A stretch of DNA of 64,000 nt from Flavobacteriales bacterium (GTDB lineage: Bacteria; Bacteroidota; Bacteroidia; Flavobacteriales; Flavobacteriaceae): assembly GCA_027066365.1 (NCBI GenBank), contig JAMONV010000018.1, positions 1-64,000 on the forward strand. The letters are read 5' to 3'. Under the pieces are notes generated by a model. The model made no database searches and was not told where the DNA came from. It was given only the letters and a program-made list of their open reading frames with translations. Of the stretch, positions 260 through 7,730 are shown piece after piece (position 1 is the stretch's first letter; each line of letters starts with the position of its first letter). Position numbers and translations under genes: made by a program.

Positions 260-291
260 TTTGTAATTGAATAAAAAAAAAATTAAATTTG
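260..291 (+). promoter_or_regulatory. Bacteroidota-type promoter for the TAXI-channel gene
   Basis: TTTG at 260-263 and TAAATTTG at 284-291 are separated by 20 bp, which matches the Bacteroidota -33/-7 consensus TTTG...TAnnTTTG. The -7 box covers the in-frame TTG at 289, so translation cannot sensibly begin there; the ATG at 310 is the better start. Confidence 0.65.
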
Positions 292-309: not shown

Positions 310-2697
310 ATGAATCGCTATATTAAGTTTGTTTTTTTGTTAATGATAGCCGGATTATATGGCCAGGAAGAAAAGGTGAATTTTTTGATTGCTTCCGGAA
401 GCCGGGGAGGAAATTATTATCGAACGGGACATTTTATAGCGAGACAATACAATACTTATTTAAAGAATGGTCGTTTCAGGTCGATTGAAACGAACGGTTC
501 GGAAGAAAATATCCGTTTATTAAGGAATAATCAAGTTGACTTTGCTGTTGTTCAACGTAATATTCTTTTGAATAATATTTATAATGATGAAGCGGGAATC
601 AAGAATGTGGTGGTCATTACCCCACTATTTGAAGAGAAATTGTGGATTTATATTCATGGTAAAAAATCGGTTCCTTTTCAGGCATTGGACAGTTTGTCGG
701 GCAAAAAGAAATTAAAAGTAGGATTTACGGGGCGCCGGGGATATAGTTATAAGATTTTCAGAACATTGCTGCAATTTTTGGATATAAATTATGAAAATTT
801 TGAAGATTTTATTGCTAATTATGATACTTTGACGGCACGTTTTTTGCGTGACAGTTTGGATATGGTGGTGAGTTTTTCATTACCGTTGGCGTCTTTAGAT
901 ACATTTCCGGGCGTCACAAAAGTATATCTCGAACGAGTTGATGCGGAGGATATTTCGAACCGTTTACGTAATTTGACCGTAACTGTTTTGGATACTTCGG
1001 GCGCTTACACTTTGGGAAGTTGGAGTTTTTTTGTGGGATTGCGTTCCGTATTGGATAGAATTTCGGATGAACATCAATTGGTTAATGCTTTGTTTGTGAA
1101 GACAGACGATTCGGTTTCGAGGAATCTACAAGCCCTTATTAATCAATCTTTCAGGCAATTTTCGGAGAATAAACACCAAGAGGCGGTTTTGCTAAGAAAT
1201 TTACCTTTATCGGCTTCTTTGAGCGATAAAATCGGATTTAGAAATATTAATTGGCGGCCTTATTTTTATGTGTTTTTGCTTTTTTTATTATTGCTTTTTT
1301 TGAATTATTTCAATAACGGTCGCTTTATTCCGCGTATTCGATTGGGTTATATTTGGCAACGCTATAAGCATTTTCAGTTCGGATTTATCGTATTGATTAT
1401 TTTATATTTCGCCGGTATTGAGCTTTTGGTTTATTCCGAAAAAGTATTTTATAAGGATATCGGCATTAAGAGTCAGATTTTAAATATGACACGTCCCGAT
1501 TTGCATTCCTGGCTTTTGGTAACCACTTTGACGGGCAATAGCAATGGGATATTTCCGCTTTCTACACTGGGCAAAATCATGTTGGCACTTAATTCCATTA
1601 ACTTTTGGATAGGGACGGTTTTAATCGGGGTTTCCGAATATGTGACATACACAATCAATAAAAAGCGAAAAAAAGGACTTATGAAAACAAAACATACGGG
1701 ACATTTGGTGATTTTCGGGTGGAATCATACTACCGAAAAGTTTCTTTTGGAGGTCATTAAAGAGTCCAAAGTTTATTTGAAGCGCAATATCGATATTGTT
1801 TGTGTGGTGGATGATGTCGAACGGGTGCGAACGGAGTATGAAAAAGCGAAAGCGTTGCACGATACCAAAAAGCTTGATATGATTAAGGGTGATGCTTTGG
1901 ATCATTATATTCTGGAGATGGCGAATGTGCATAAAGCAGATACGGTAATTTTACTATCGGACGATCGTAGTAAGCATGCCGATGAGCGGACGGTGATGCG
2001 GGCGCACGCCATTTCGCGTTTTGTGAAAAAAATGCGTCATATCGAGGAAAAGAAACCGGAAACCATGAAGGAGAGAATGGTGGAGAGTTTTAAGAAACTT
2101 GTTGAGAGCCGTAGGAAGCGAGCCGGATATGAACATGTGGAAATTTCGGATGACGCCGATTACATTTATATGATTGCCGAAATTAATAACGAAGAATTCC
2201 GGGAAAGTTTAATCGATGCGGACGTGAATGAAATCGTTATTGCGGGAAATTATCGCAAAGCTATCATTAAGCAATCGTTGTTTAATCACGGAATTTCGCG
2301 AGTGATTGATGAAATCATGCAGTATAATGATTATAATGAGTTTTATAAAATCGATTTGGCAGATCCGGCCAACGCTTTTTTGGTGGGGAAAACTTTTGAC
2401 GAATTGTTGATTATTTTGCGAGAGGCGGGGATTTTATTGATCGGATATCATATTATTTTTCACGATAGCAATGATAATATCGTGATTGACCGTCAAGAAA
2501 TCGAACGCTTGTTGAAAGAACATGAGCCGGGTATAACGCGGGATATTATTGTTAATCCTATTGATCCGGCGGAAAAGAGTCGTCCGGTTGACAATGACGA
2601 TCATTTGATTGTGTTGGCGGTTAGTATGAAAGCTTTGGAAGAGGGTTTGGCCCGCTTGCGCGGGAAATTTGACAACCAAAAAAATCCGGTTCATTGA
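310..2697 (+). CDS. TAXI solute-binding domain fused to an ion-channel pore and RCK domain
   Basis: This 795-residue protein (ATG at 310) joins parts usually found in separate proteins. Residues 1-18 are a signal peptide. Residues about 22-300 resemble TAXI-family TRAP solute receptors (FLIASGSRGGNYYRTG, NQVDFAVVQ). Hydrophobic spans lie near 317-336, 354-378 and 421-443. Between the last two is a pore-loop-like segment, TTLTGNSNGIFPLSTLGKI, which aligns by position with a K+ channel filter but lacks TVGYG. From about 462 an MthK-like RCK domain begins (HLVIFGWNHTTEKFL, VILLSDD) and runs into an RCK-C region. The predicted topology (periplasmic receptor, three spans, cytoplasmic RCK) is consistent. 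Inference: a ligand-gated, cytoplasmically regulated channel; the ion and ligand are unknown. Confidence 0.7.
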   Translation: MNRYIKFVFLLMIAGLYGQEEKVNFLIASGSRGGNYYRTGHFIARQYNTYLKNGRFRSIETNGSEENIRLLRNNQVDFAVVQRNILLNNIYNDEAGIKNVVVITPLFEEKLWIYIHGKKSVPFQALDSLSGKKKLKVGFTGRRGYSYKIFRTLLQFLDINYENFEDFIANYDTLTARFLRDSLDMVVSFSLPLASLDTFPGVTKVYLERVDAEDISNRLRNLTVTVLDTSGAYTLGSWSFFVGLRSVLDRISDEHQLVNALFVKTDDSVSRNLQALINQSFRQFSENKHQEAVLLRNLPLSASLSDKIGFRNINWRPYFYVFLLFLLLLFLNYFNNGRFIPRIRLGYIWQRYKHFQFGFIVLIILYFAGIELLVYSEKVFYKDIGIKSQILNMTRPDLHSWLLVTTLTGNSNGIFPLSTLGKIMLALNSINFWIGTVLIGVSEYVTYTINKKRKKGLMKTKHTGHLVIFGWNHTTEKFLLEVIKESKVYLKRNIDIVCVVDDVERVRTEYEKAKALHDTKKLDMIKGDALDHYILEMANVHKADTVILLSDDRSKHADERTVMRAHAISRFVKKMRHIEEKKPETMKERMVESFKKLVESRRKRAGYEHVEISDDADYIYMIAEINNEEFRESLIDADVNEIVIAGNYRKAIIKQSLFNHGISRVIDEIMQYNDYNEFYKIDLADPANAFLVGKTFDELLIILREAGILLIGYHIIFHDSNDNIVIDRQEIERLLKEHEPGITRDIIVNPIDPAEKSRPVDNDDHLIVLAVSMKALEEGLARLRGKFDNQKNPVH

Positions 2698-2846: not shown

Positions 2847-5800
2847 TTACCGAATGATTTTTCGAGTGATTGTTCCGTTATTCGTAAAGATTTCCAGGAG
2901 GTAAATTCCGTTGGCGGCTTTTTGTAGATCCAACCGGATATCCGGGTTTTCGTTTCCTTCGACGGTTTGGATTTGCCGGCCGTTTACGGTGGATATTATG
3001 ACACGATTGATTTTTCCACCGGATAAGTGTAAGAAGAATATTCCATCGCCGGTATTTCGAATGCTTAATTTTGTGGAAATGATGTTTTTACCGGATTTGA
3101 GGGCTTGATTGGAGAAGACAATGGCGAAGCGGTTTTCGAAGTTTCCTGCCGTTGAAGAGAAAGCGTAGGCGCCGTTTGCAAAATCGTGCAGTGTATTCAA
3201 ATCATAATCGATCAGGTAGATATGGATGTTTTGCAAATTACCTTCACGACGGTTCAAACGGATGCTATAATTTCCTTGAGTGTCGGCGGTGAATCCAACC
3301 GGGATGGTGTCCGCTTGAAAGTTATTCCAGTCGGCTTCGGTTAGAATGGTAAATTTTTGTTCGTTTTGAATGGCATAGAATCGTAGGCTTATTGCGTGTG
3401 CATCATAAAATCGGTCGGTGTTTGAGGATGCGTTGGGATTATATCCGAGTAGGATTTGTCCGAATTGTTCTCCGTTAACGGATTCGAAGTCAAACCATGC
3501 GCGGTCGGTGGTGTGACGATTAAGGAATTGGTTGTTGATGGTGGTTCGTTGGGAGTTTGAGAAGGTTACGTTTCCTTGTGTGTTGGCTTCCACCATAAAT
3601 CCTTGTCCGGATGCAACGTATTGGGATGCCATGGGTCCCGTTCCGCTGCATGCTGAAGTTGCGCCCGTTTGATTATAAACGGTATAGCCGGCTTCCTGAT
3701 GTTGTCCGTTAGCGTTGAGACCGGCGCAATTAGTCCACAAGTATAAACTTCCTTGGATATTGGCGTTATCCTGTGCAAATAAGTCAAAATTCAACGCCGA
3801 AGGGTAGGGATTACCTAGTAAGTTCCAGTCGTCTCCGTCGCTGGAGCCGTTTCCGTTAACAATTACGGGGGTGGAGATTTGTCCGTTGTTGAAAGGGTCG
3901 TTATTTTTGGTGAAAACGATTTTCAGCTTTCCTCCGTTATAACCGTCGGGAGCTGAGACGGCATATCCGGTTCCGGATTCAAAAATGTCGGTGCTTTGCA
4001 ATTGAGTCCATCCGGCATTCGGTGTGACGGACGGGTCTTGAACGGAAGCATCGAATCGATAATAGCGCCAAGCGTTATTAACCGCATCCGCCATTGTGTA
4101 ATTGTTACCTGAAAGCGGTGAGGAAAGATAGACATAATCATAATAATGTTCGAGGGAATCGGTGGTTCGTTTCATCACATATTTTCCGTTTCCTTCAATA
4201 ACGGAATTGTCGTTTGTTTGCACCAAAGAAGCATTGTTTCTGATTTCCAAGTAGCCGCGATTGTATAAGTCATTGGTTAATTGAATGTATCGTTCATCGC
4301 CGATAACGGTTGTGTTGCCAAGGCGTAACGCAGCGGAACAAGCGGACAAATCATCGGTTTTAAGGTAGAGTAAGTTGTCTGCCAATAGGAATTTATCGGC
4401 GAGATTGGTGATTGAAAGCGTATCGCCGGAAAGGGATTTCCAAAGGTTTCCGTTCCATTGGGCTACGGAGGTGCAATTGTCAAAAACGATAATACCGTAG
4501 TCTTCCACTTCACCGTCATAATCCGTATCGCATGGACCTTGATAGGTATTATAACTGGCGGATATTCGCATTTTGGTTTTTCCGGGGACGGCGTCAGCGG
4601 GCACTTGAATGGTATATGGTGATTCGTTGGTGGGGCCATCGGAAACATTGGTAGCATAGCCGAGGTCGTATTGTTCATTGGCATCATCAAAATCTCCGTC
4701 TTGATTCCAATCTATCCATGCGCGGGCATATACGTCATAATTACCGTCGGTATTGACATTGACGGTCAGTTCGTAATTTTGACCGCGTTTTACCGATGCT
4801 CGGATTTGGTCGTAATTATTATAAGGCAGACTTTTCCCGGAGCTTATGGAGATTTCATTCAAGGTAACACCCGTGATAGAAGTGGCGTAATCCATGTTAC
4901 CATATGATGCGCAATAATTCTCGGTGGAGGGGATGCCGGTGCTTTCTTGAACAATAACATTATCGATGGCTATATCGGATTGATAATCGGAACCCGTATG
5001 ACCGGTAAATTTGATTAAAATCGAAGGGTTGCCTGCATAATCGTTTAGATCGACAATGGCTTCTTTCCATGCATAGCCTTGATTTCCGGCCAAGGACCAA
5101 AGAGAAGATGACCATGTATTTCCGTTGTCGGTAGAAATGTAAACGTCGAGTTGTCCCATATTAGCGCCATACATGAGGTAATTGAAGCGTAATTCGGGTT
5201 GATTTAGGGTGGAAAAATTAAAGGTAGGGCTGATAACGGAAGCGGTTTTATTGTCACATCCCGAGGCTTCCAAATAGATATAGCGTCCTTCCCAGTCGTT
5301 GGCATCGAAGTAAGGTCCTGTTCCGGGTGAAGGGGTGGAGCCGGATATGATATCCCAGTCGGCGTCGTCGCCGGAGAGGTTTTGCCAACAATCGGAAAAG
5401 GTTACCGAACCGTCGCCGGTACAAGCCGATGTGGGGGAACTTTCGGCCCAATCATTGAAAGATTCCAGATAGGGAAAATCCGATATGATATCACAAGCGG
5501 TTCTGAAACTGACGTTATCGCCGTAGGAAGTTCCGTAGGCGTTAGTGGCATATGCACGAACATAATAGGTTGTGGTTGGATTGAGTCCGGTGAGGTTAAC
5601 CGAAAAGTTTCCCGTTCCGCTTCCTGCGGAGGCGTGGTTTCCTGCTATGGTAGGGTTGGGCGAAGTGCTCCAGCAAATTCCGCGTTCGGTTACGCTTGAT
5701 CCGTTTTCGGAAACAACATTGCCGTTGGCAGTGGCGGTGGTGGCACCTACGGCGCTCATGGCTAAGGTTTGAACCGATGGCGGTCCGTCCGTGGTTCCTT

Positions 5801-7730
5801 GCCCGGTTAAGGCGGGTGTCAAGTAGCAATAATCAGCGGATGCATATTCATAAAGGGCAAAATAATAAGTTTGTCCTTGTTGTAATCCGGTCACATGAAC
5901 GTTTGTGCCCGTTCCGTTATACACAACGAAATTGCCGCTTCCTATTTCATCGCCGTTGCCGAATTGGGCATCAGCCGTGTAATTTGTTCCTGAAGAAGGG
6001 TCGGTGTTGACGGCGCTTCCCTCACGGGCCAAAACAAGAATACGGTCCCCGTTGCCTCTTGTCCAGCTAATATCCAAGCTGTTATCCGTGTGGGCGGTTA
6101 TATTAAAACCGGAAGCTTGCGTGTCCGGAGGTGTGCAGGAAGAGGGAAATTCGAAAGAAACAATACGGGTTCCGTGTGTATTGCTTTTCATGTATTCGGT
6201 TGTAAACCAAAAGGTTTTGCCGTTGGGGTCGACGCTCATATTGGCATAATCGCCCCACCGGTTATAATTGGATTGGGCATATTGCCCGTTCAGGATTTGT
6301 GTTGCGTCAATGTCCAAAATACCCGAAGCGTTATTGTTCTCCGCTTGTGTTTGTCCGGTAATATAAATGCTGGGATAGGTATTGTTTGCATCGGAAATAT
6401 TGTAGCCGATGGCTATTTCTTTTTGTGCATTTATGGCGATTGCAGGAAGCCAGCAGGTGGTTCCGTTTAGGTCTATTTGACCTTGTTGTCGAATATTCCA
6501 ACTTCCCGAAGTGTTTTGTAATTCATACCAGCGGATAGCTCCTTCGCTGCTGCTTTGGGCAATGGTGTGTGCAACAACCAGCCTTTGATCGCCGTTGAAA
6601 TTTCGGTAGCAAGCTCTGAACATTAAAACCGTTGAAAGTGCATCTAATTTTTGGGAAGTGCCGGGCTGGGGAACATTATCCCAATCACCGGTGAAATTTC
6701 CGGTAAATGAAGGAATATCAATGGTTTGTGTCCTCTGGAAAGTGGAATTGGAAGGATTGTTCCAATCGACGTTTAATTGATAAATCCATAATTGGTCGGC
6801 GGGATTGTTTTGATCATCGTCCACAACGGTGATGAATTGCCCGGGAGTTCCGGTTGGTGCCCAAGCCCCGTCGTTGTCCAAGGGTATAATGCAATGAAAG
6901 CCGTCGAAGGTGGATGGGCGGTTGGGATTGTCAAATCCGATCATGGCGGGATTGGGGTCGCCGACAATCATTTTACTGCGTTCAAAGACATAGATGTCAT
7001 TGCCGTTGCTATTGTTGGTGGCCATATAATATCCGTCTTGCCAAATTCCGAATTTCATATAATCGGGCATATCGTCCACATCGAAGCTCCACGACCACCA
7101 ATTACCGCGCGGGTCGTCGGTTTGGGAAACGGCAATGAGCATATAATCATTGCTTCCGCTGACGGAAAATTCGGCATAGAACCATTTGCCTGCTTGTTCG
7201 TCCCATAAAACGATCGGATCGCCGTCATTATAATTGGCGCCGGGTAAATTACTGTCGAAAATCGAATTTAAGTCGGACGGCCCGGCTAACAAGTTTCCGT
7301 TTTTATCATAAATGGCATAGGTCGTATTGACCACTTGAAAATAATAATTGGCGTTTACGTCGCCGTTGGCGTCGGGCGGATAAGCACCGGTATTTTGTCC
7401 GTCAAAGTTTTGTAATATCGTGGGCGGATAGGTTTGAATCGATTGGGGTCGGGCGAAATTTTGTCCGGCATAAATATGCACAAAATCGGGAACTTGTATA
7501 TTCGGATTGAGTGTTCTTTCTTCATACCGGTTATAATAAAATTCTTCGTTTTGCAAATGAAAATCCGAGACTACGGGGCGATTGCCCAGTGAATCGATAA
7601 GGGCAAAACCGATAGGGTATTTAATAATCGTAGGATGAACTACGGCACCGCTTTGTGCCGTAATTTCGGGAATGGAAATAAAAATAAAAATCAGGAAGAA
7701 AAATAATTTCTTTCTCATAAGCTTTTGCAT
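2847..7730 (-). CDS. Large secreted multidomain protein with T9SS type A sorting domain
   Basis: This 1627-residue protein has a signal peptide at residues 1-26 (KKLFFFLIFIFISIPEITAQ). Residues about 90-530 form a repetitive beta-rich region, possibly a propeller. Fibronectin type III-like domains follow at about 537-645 and 650-742, then a MAM-like jelly-roll domain at about 745-930. A GEVED domain spans about 938-1080 (WIDWNQDGDFDD, DGEVEDYG). Residues 1550-1627 are a T9SS type A sorting domain ending in GIYLLEIFTNNGTITRKIIR. It should cross the outer membrane by the type IX system and be attached to or released from the surface. No catalytic motif was recognised; adhesin or matrix binding is a guess. 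ATG at 7718 is an alternative start. Confidence 0.85.
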   Translation of the reverse strand: MQKLMRKKLFFFLIFIFISIPEITAQSGAVVHPTIIKYPIGFALIDSLGNRPVVSDFHLQNEEFYYNRYEERTLNPNIQVPDFVHIYAGQNFARPQSIQTYPPTILQNFDGQNTGAYPPDANGDVNANYYFQVVNTTYAIYDKNGNLLAGPSDLNSIFDSNLPGANYNDGDPIVLWDEQAGKWFYAEFSVSGSNDYMLIAVSQTDDPRGNWWSWSFDVDDMPDYMKFGIWQDGYYMATNNSNGNDIYVFERSKMIVGDPNPAMIGFDNPNRPSTFDGFHCIIPLDNDGAWAPTGTPGQFITVVDDDQNNPADQLWIYQLNVDWNNPSNSTFQRTQTIDIPSFTGNFTGDWDNVPQPGTSQKLDALSTVLMFRACYRNFNGDQRLVVAHTIAQSSSEGAIRWYELQNTSGSWNIRQQGQIDLNGTTCWLPAIAINAQKEIAIGYNISDANNTYPSIYITGQTQAENNNASGILDIDATQILNGQYAQSNYNRWGDYANMSVDPNGKTFWFTTEYMKSNTHGTRIVSFEFPSSCTPPDTQASGFNITAHTDNSLDISWTRGNGDRILVLAREGSAVNTDPSSGTNYTADAQFGNGDEIGSGNFVVYNGTGTNVHVTGLQQGQTYYFALYEYASADYCYLTPALTGQGTTDGPPSVQTLAMSAVGATTATANGNVVSENGSSVTERGICWSTSPNPTIAGNHASAGSGTGNFSVNLTGLNPTTTYYVRAYATNAYGTSYGDNVSFRTACDIISDFPYLESFNDWAESSPTSACTGDGSVTFSDCWQNLSGDDADWDIISGSTPSPGTGPYFDANDWEGRYIYLEASGCDNKTASVISPTFNFSTLNQPELRFNYLMYGANMGQLDVYISTDNGNTWSSSLWSLAGNQGYAWKEAIVDLNDYAGNPSILIKFTGHTGSDYQSDIAIDNVIVQESTGIPSTENYCASYGNMDYATSITGVTLNEISISSGKSLPYNNYDQIRASVKRGQNYELTVNVNTDGNYDVYARAWIDWNQDGDFDDANEQYDLGYATNVSDGPTNESPYTIQVPADAVPGKTKMRISASYNTYQGPCDTDYDGEVEDYGIIVFDNCTSVAQWNGNLWKSLSGDTLSITNLADKFLLADNLLYLKTDDLSACSAALRLGNTTVIGDERYIQLTNDLYNRGYLEIRNNASLVQTNDNSVIEGNGKYVMKRTTDSLEHYYDYVYLSSPLSGNNYTMADAVNNAWRYYRFDASVQDPSVTPNAGWTQLQSTDIFESGTGYAVSAPDGYNGGKLKIVFTKNNDPFNNGQISTPVIVNGNGSSDGDDWNLLGNPYPSALNFDLFAQDNANIQGSLYLWTNCAGLNANGQHQEAGYTVYNQTGATSACSGTGPMASQYVASGQGFMVEANTQGNVTFSNSQRTTINNQFLNRHTTDRAWFDFESVNGEQFGQILLGYNPNASSNTDRFYDAHAISLRFYAIQNEQKFTILTEADWNNFQADTIPVGFTADTQGNYSIRLNRREGNLQNIHIYLIDYDLNTLHDFANGAYAFSSTAGNFENRFAIVFSNQALKSGKNIISTKLSIRNTGDGIFFLHLSGGKINRVIISTVNGRQIQTVEGNENPDIRLDLQKAANGIYLLEIFTNNGTITRKIIR

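Follow-up and report, generated by a model that had tools for sequence, protein, structure and literature searches.

A TAXI-type receptor domain joined to a K+-channel-type pore and an RCK domain in one predicted protein of Flavobacteriales

A periplasmic receptor and an ion channel can occur in one polypeptide, as in GluR0 and its relatives, which carry a two-lobed periplasmic binding domain and a P-loop channel (PMC2950845). The pore of glutamate receptors is inverted, entering the membrane from the opposite side, and divides their binding domain into two parts (PMC6385376). MthK and other bacterial K+ channels with two transmembrane helices (2TM) and a regulator of K+ conductance (RCK) domain consist of a helix, a pore loop, and a second helix, followed by one cytoplasmic RCK domain. 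The CASTOR/POLLUX/DMI1 Ca2+ channels are also RCK gated and have a pore without the TVGYG signature (PMC6697748). TAXI proteins such as VcGluP and TtGluBP belong to a family of receptor subunits of tripartite ATP-independent periplasmic (TRAP) transporters. The TAXI domain can also be joined to a membrane protein other than a TRAP permease, which in the TAXI-GltS fusions is a Na+/glutamate carrier (PMC12344293). The gene described here lies at positions 310 to 2697 on the forward strand of a 64,000-nucleotide stretch of contig JAMONV010000018.1 from a Flavobacteriales bacterium (assembly GCA_027066365.1), and this whole stretch is called the window below. The gene encodes one chain with a putative signal peptide, a TAXI-type domain, one membrane helix, a K+-channel-type helix/pore-loop/helix unit, and an RCK domain (Table 1). 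An initial annotation of the DNA had proposed that a TRAP-type receptor, a pore-loop membrane domain, and an RCK domain are combined in this protein, and profile, structure-prediction, and comparative evidence agree on that combination.

What might such a protein do? The reading favored here, with moderate confidence, is a tetrameric cation channel that is gated by a periplasmic ligand and modulated by its RCK domains. The protein is best regarded as neither a classical K+ channel nor a member of the glutamate-receptor family; it is related to the MthK-type channels but falls outside their filter definition.

The gene itself is one uninterrupted frame of 795 codons, with an ATG at 310 and a stop at 2695 to 2697, though a TTG at 289 is a possible alternative start. 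It sits at the contig edge, yet it is complete. The fusion recurs at seven distinct loci (the window and L008 to L013), six of them full length, with pairwise amino acid identities of 42 to 65%. A frame error or a chance joining of genes was considered as its source and is ruled out by the six other genomes in which the fused frame is likewise unbroken, five of them with a full-length copy. The initial annotation had been right, then, to treat it as one real protein. Differences between copies are fewest at second codon positions, intermediate at first positions, and most numerous at third positions in 21 of 21 pairs, which argues for constraint at the protein level.

The three folds and the topology are computational predictions. 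The receptor domain is contiguous at about residues 20 to 298, ahead of all membrane helices. Pfam NMT1_3 (PF16868, the TAXI family) matches residues 27 to 185 with 51.6 bits against a cut-off of 27 and is over its cut-off in six of the seven carrier genomes, the shortened copy at L010 (described below) falling under it at 23.3 bits. The NCBIfam model for the TAXI subunit of TRAP transporters, TIGR02122, gives the window protein 46.2 bits, short of its cut-off of 84.35. By VIA-align, the modeled receptor matches the TAXI protein 9ibp with a Z score of 22.9 over 272 residues and the structures 8u79, 1us4, and 9ibo with Z scores of about 20; the predicted receptor is a two-lobed TAXI fold. At the other end of the chain, Pfam Slo-like_RCK matches residues 463 to 576 (37.8 bits; cut-off, 24), the RCK domain of MthK, 2aem, matches the model at a Z score of 14.7 and 2.9 Å over 202 residues, and a model of residues 306 to 795 matches MthK 6u68 at a Z score of 18.3 with 298 residues aligned. 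This RCK domain is located behind the inner helix and is single, not tandem. A phmmer search against solved structures aligns residues 12 to 82 to a TAXI protein and residues 401 to 490 to MthK, and the best Foldseek matches of the model are glutamate-bound VcGluP and MthK.

Between these two parts lies the membrane region. Two AlphaFold2 models were made, model 1 from 5 family sequences and model 2, of residues 306 to 795, from an alignment of 27 sequences, 7 of the family and 20 of K+ channels (predicted local distance difference test [pLDDT], 85.7; predicted template modeling score [pTM], 0.73). The spans and the pore helix coincide in the two models, at 316 to 336, 345 or 353 to 384, 395 to 408 (pore helix), and 419 to 454. 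The three spans that had been proposed at the outset thus recur at the same places in both, with a predicted pore fold between the spans. The topology supported by these models has the receptor outside, the anchor helix (TM0) leading in, the outer helix leading out, a turret, the pore helix and filter, the inner helix leading back in, and the RCK domain inside. The predicted pore is in the K+-channel orientation. Between TM0 and the outer helix is a strongly basic linker in which W349 and RYKHF (351 to 355) are invariant in the seven copies.

Is the membrane region truly related to K+-channel pores? On that region alone, no Pfam channel model, Ion_trans_2 included, matches any of the seven members at an E value of ≤10. 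Because Pfam gave no channel match and the alignment for model 2 itself held K+ channels, the pore was assessed separately with hhalign. The membrane regions of the seven family members align to the pores of 19 Bacteroidota K+ channels (the set of 20 without L026, which is nearly the same as L025) with a probability of 78 and a P value of 1.8e-5, against a best P value of 0.024 in a small control set of 10 column shuffles and 1 reversal. Structure prediction and profile comparison both give a helix-P loop-helix pore.

In the alignment and in hhalign, the filter lines up with TVGYGD in register and without a gap. The sequence at this place is TGNSNG in five of the seven copies, TGNSDG in one (L013), and TSNSQG in one (L012), so that a TVGYG-type signature is absent from all seven, whereas all 20 of the related Bacteroidota channels that were aligned have GYGD. 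Both filter glycines are replaced in every copy, the inner one by N and the outer one by N, D, or Q. The frame TxxG...P..T.LGKI, noted from the start as kept although TVGYG is not, holds up as a gap-free counterpart of TVGYGD...P.T..GR. With both glycines replaced in the TVGYGD register, the pore would most naturally be expected to have lost classical K+ selectivity and to be nonselective, Na+ permeable, or divalent permeable instead. Might it nevertheless still be a K+ channel, an MthK-type protein that has gained a periplasmic receptor and whose unusual filter keeps K+ selectivity through asparagine in a glycine-like backbone shape? Asparagine can take the backbone shape usual for glycine, the length and flanks of the filter (T-T-x-T ... 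P, G) are kept without gaps, and the nearest nonfamily proteins among those compared are GYGD K+ channels of Bacteroidota. We consider this unlikely, however, since none of the seven copies retains the first G, the Y, or the second G, every one of them has G for the D that follows, the outer position can be N, D, or Q, the related channels all retain GYGD, and the genome already has a GFG-type channel.

The distribution of invariant residues among the six full-length copies bears on whether the pore is in use. Conservation peaks in the middle of the RCK domain, where 37 of 64 positions are invariant; the pore helix with the filter has 12 of 24, the inner helix has 15 of 33, and the receptor has 64 of 279, against none of 24 in TM0 (312 to 335) and none of 46 in the RCK insertion at 571 to 616. 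From the contrast with TM0 and the insertion, the pore is judged to be under strong constraint. The insertion, 37 to 48 residues long in the seven copies, variable, and partly helical, is not present in the 20 related K+ channels. Such a family-specific element could be a docking site, and together with the noncanonical filter and the highly conserved middle RCK region it would suit a protein with a nonconducting pore, which relays periplasmic ligand binding to an RCK domain acting on another partner. This idea is rather unlikely in our view: a scaffold would not need a well-conserved pore helix, filter, and inner helix, whose conservation would be surprising in a dead pore; the putative docking site is itself variable; and the loci have no neighbor gene in common within the available flanks.

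What does the receptor bind? Four ligand residues of VcGluP, Y45, S75, Q93, and E125, have equivalents in the fusion receptor (Table 1). The spacing of all four fits the published numbering, with a constant offset of 28 from chain positions, and the equivalents are invariant in the six full-length copies, set against fewer than a quarter of receptor positions overall. In VcGluP, replacing these residues by alanine lowered glutamate affinity 213-, 14-, 990-, and 1.3-fold, respectively (PMC11574862). As for the partner of the receptor, the fusion is the sole TAXI match at an E value of ≤0.001 in each of the seven carrier genomes, all draft assemblies and five of them with a stated completeness, and no DctM TRAP permease is over its cut-off in any of them (weak matches of 17.7 and 17.4 bits occur in G000). 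Since these genomes have no other TAXI match and no DctM match over cut-off, the TAXI domain probably does not serve a TRAP transporter and appears to lack its customary partner.

Could the TAXI domain instead pass its ligand to the attached membrane part, making the protein a binding-protein-dependent uptake system, as proposed for the TAXI-GltS fusions? Those fusions show that TAXI domains join transport proteins other than TRAP permeases (PMC12344293), and the lack of a TRAP permease over cut-off in all seven genomes would fit. The membrane part here, however, is a P-loop channel of about 110 residues with an RCK domain, not an elevator-type carrier. P-loop channel pores pass ions, not glutamate-sized solutes, and uptake therefore seems very unlikely.

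The favored reading, a ligand-gated cation channel, can be put as a sequence of steps. (i) In the periplasm, the TAXI domain would close like a flytrap on a small amino-acid-like ligand, for which glutamate is a candidate. (ii) Closure would pull on TM0 and on the invariant basic linker, W.RYKHF, which adjoins the outer pore helix at the cytoplasmic face. (iii) This pull would alter the opening probability of the inner helices. (iv) The RCK domains would form a gating ring inside and provide a second, intracellular input, perhaps a nucleotide or a divalent cation. (v) The TGNSNG filter would pass cations nonselectively, or else Na+ or divalents. The intact fusion, its recurrence, the filter change, the pocket residues, and the lack of a DctM match over cut-off are direct observations; the tetramer, its conduction, its ligand and selectivity, and the coupling path are inferred.

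Several observations weigh against this reading. In AlphaFold2 model 1, mean pLDDT is 63 and pTM is 0.36, and while the receptor and RCK parts are better, the membrane part is poor; in model 2, the 20 K+ channels in the alignment favor a K+-channel-like pore. As mentioned, sequence conservation is lacking in TM0, which connects the receptor to the pore. The Pfam match covers only the first half of the TAXI domain, and the lobe-2 residues Y200 and M201 of VcGluP are not mappable onto the fusion receptor. E125A cost VcGluP only the 1.3-fold already given, and many other TAXI proteins also have Y45 and Q93 (78% and 54%, respectively; PMC11574862). S40 and H123 of VcGluP, which hold waters around the side-chain carboxyl of the ligand, are not kept: at S31, the six copies have S three times, K twice, and R once, and at F107 they have F or Y. 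The side-chain pocket is therefore a different one, and binding of glutamate itself is uncertain. With four residues kept, S40 and H123 not kept, and Y45 and Q93 widespread, one may fairly suppose an amino-acid-like ligand, for which glutamate is only one candidate. The copy at L010:5932-8130 is without its first ~73 residues, Y36 and S64 among them, and a tblastn search of the upstream sequence recovered no trace of this part; the gene may be shortened or the contig misassembled. (The apparent Y and S of L010 in the receptor alignment lie in unrelated sequence, and this copy was left out of the TAXI alignment and the invariance counts, as was its receptor part from the seven-copy alignment.) Lastly, no match was obtained in G008, which belongs to the genus and is near complete (96%), and a true absence there is possible.

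How does the protein compare with glutamate-receptor channels? Unlike GluR0, the protein has an unsplit receptor of another family, a predicted pore without inversion, and an additional RCK domain. No glutamate-receptor family is among the four Pfam matches of the window protein at an E value of ≤1. As the pore is predicted to be K+-channel oriented here and is inverted in glutamate receptors, the resemblance would be one of function, not layout. The initial annotation had called the receptor unrelated to the glutamate-receptor binding domain. It does belong to a different family, but the two share the same broad two-lobed periplasmic-binding fold, with Z scores of about 14 for other solute-binding proteins versus 20 to 23 for TAXI proteins. 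The PDB entry 1us4, which we take to be TtGluBP, was deposited under the title "putative GluR0 ligand binding core." The fusion receptor shares with VcGluP and TtGluBP the fold (Z score of about 20) and the ligand residues Y45, S75, Q93, and E125; it differs in its covalent fusion to a channel, in the lack of a TRAP permease over cut-off in the genome, and in not keeping S40 and H123. Compared with MthK, the pore and RCK arrangement is alike, and the TGNSNG filter, the N-terminal receptor and anchor helix, the longer turret, and the RCK insertion are different.

CASTOR, POLLUX, and DMI1 invite a further comparison, since the CASTOR filter, AD265S(A)GNHA, also contains G-N (PMC6697748). Two residues in common are too few to imply kinship. 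The CASTOR-type channels have two RCK domains in tandem versus one here, a filter aspartate that is essential in CASTOR and has no equivalent here, and no periplasmic receptor. The Pfam family Castor_Poll_mid does not match the window protein at an E value of ≤1 and matches three of the seven members, with a best E value of 0.0067, while in six of six Bacteroidota CASTOR-like proteins it scores 65 to 102 bits. These six bacterial CASTOR/POLLUX-like proteins (L028, L032, L034, L020, L040, and L041) are 638 to 664 residues long, and the four whose sequences were inspected showed no TVGYG.

How widespread is the fusion? It occurs in 5 of 9 genomes of its genus and in 5 of the 6 near-complete ones; those without it are G002, G003, G005, and G008, three of which are <90% complete. 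Two further carriers, L010 (G775) and L012 (G776), may lie inside or outside the genus. Of 60 relatives, six gave a match: five, the window's own genome included, over nearly the whole length and G011 over the RCK part only. In a phylum sample of 395 genomes, the window's own genome alone had a whole-length match and 27 others matched a part; in an order sample of 395 genomes, the single match at an E value of ≤1e-12 was the window's own. The other families and genera sampled thus gave no carrier. The set of 20 related channels used above comprises 19 of those 27 partial matches plus L007 from the relatives, leaving out L017 (TAXI only), the six CASTOR-like proteins, and L036 (no BLAST match at 0.01). 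Among the matches listed for 395 phylum and 371 other-class genomes, no frame of >494 residues but the window's own has PF16868; these two samples have genomes in common, and for some genomes of the first only part of the candidates was scored. A single ordinary TAXI gene, adjoining a TRAP permease, turned up in plasmid records, and viral contigs gave no match. Other phyla were covered only by a contig scan with two short peptide patterns, which would miss distant fusions.

Where might the fusion have come from? Other Bacteroidota have proteins (L017:1345-2772, L065:1135-2523, and L054:1090-2505) with a TAXI-like domain, one hydrophobic span as judged by eye, and a charged tail of ~80 to 100 residues that looks like a cytoplasmic coil. 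They could be receptor-like orphan TAXI proteins and a possible precursor: a single-span TAXI-like protein placed ahead of a 2TM-RCK channel would give the present layout. In G000, the sole Ion_trans_2 match, L001:1459-2520 on C19, is a 2TM channel with the filter TTIGFGE where TVGYGD is usual, plus TrkA_N and TrkA_C domains.

The fusion is most likely a stand-alone gene, given a promoter-like box upstream and no neighbor common to the loci. A TAnnTTTG box, which in the window is part of a promoter-like element of the Bacteroidota -33/-7 type at 261 to 291, starts 24 to 33 bases 5' of the start in five of the six full-length copies and 13 bases 5' in L012, distances that depend on start codons taken, for L012 and L013, simply as the frame openings. 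In shuffled upstream sequence, the box appears at -50 to -20 in 0.7 to 3.8% of cases. The complete form with the spaced TTG is found in two of the six (the window and L012). No common neighbor was detected at an E value of 1e-4 among frames of at least 90 residues within the available flanks, which are limited enough (almost no upstream sequence in the window, a 4.3-kb contig for L009, and no downstream sequence for L010) that one could be missed. The gene 3' of the fusion is convergent with it. It lies at 2847 to 7730 on the reverse strand and encodes a 1,627-residue protein with a signal-like N-terminal stretch that, judged by eye, may be a type IX-secreted surface protein.

Table 1. Coordinates of the fusion gene's features and upstream element within the window
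Feature	Positions	Strand	Basis
Promoter-like element, TTG - 20 nt - TAAATTTG	261..291	+	Presumed Bacteroidota-type -33/-7 consensus
Putative signal peptide, residues 1-21	310..372	+	By eye: charged N end; hydrophobic helix 2-16 in model
TAXI-type solute-binding domain, residues 22-300	373..1209	+	Pfam PF16868; VIA structure matches
Y36, equivalent of VcGluP Y45 (ligand)	415..417	+	Profile alignment to 8s4j
S64, equivalent of VcGluP S75 (ligand)	499..501	+	Profile alignment to 8s4j
Q82, equivalent of VcGluP Q93 (ligand)	553..555	+	Profile alignment to 8s4j
E109, equivalent of VcGluP E125 (ligand)	634..636	+	Profile alignment to 8s4j
TM0 anchor helix, 316-336, out to in	1255..1317	+	Helix in both AlphaFold2 models
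Basic cytoplasmic linker WQRYKHF, 349-355	1354..1374	+	Alignment of seven copies
Outer pore helix, 356-384	1375..1461	+	Both AlphaFold2 models
Pore helix, 395-408	1492..1533	+	Both AlphaFold2 models; hhalign to K+ pores
Selectivity-filter position TGNSNG, 408-413, replacing TVGYGD	1531..1548	+	Gap-free in alignment and hhalign
Inner pore helix, 419-454	1564..1671	+	Both AlphaFold2 models
Single RCK domain with C lobe, 463-790	1696..2679	+	Pfam Slo-like_RCK; MthK structure match
Family-specific variable RCK insertion, 571-616	2020..2157	+	Present in seven copies, not in 20 related K+ channels

No description of a TAXI-channel or TAXI-RCK fusion was found among the titles and abstract openings listed in searches of the open-access literature without bioRxiv. 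One tentative and, on balance, doubtful extension of the favored reading is that an amino-acid-gated, perhaps glutamate-gated, cation channel was built a second time in bacteria from other parts, independently of the glutamate-receptor lineage: a TAXI domain, an uninverted MthK-type pore with its filter changed away from K+, and an RCK domain as second input, giving a dual-gated channel of the excitatory type.

If the favored reading is true, a single protein, with its receptor outside and its RCK ring inside, could compute on two signals. It would also put to the test the evolutionary claim that a solute-binding protein and a K+-channel pore readily yield a ligand-gated channel. An engineered fusion of a glutamate-receptor binding domain with a viral K+ channel has worked in the laboratory (PMC6385376), and nature appears to have made a similar fusion with another receptor and the pore left uninverted. 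The TGNSN filter, kept by the family in the exact register of TVGYG, would then be a natural experiment on the loss or change of selectivity.

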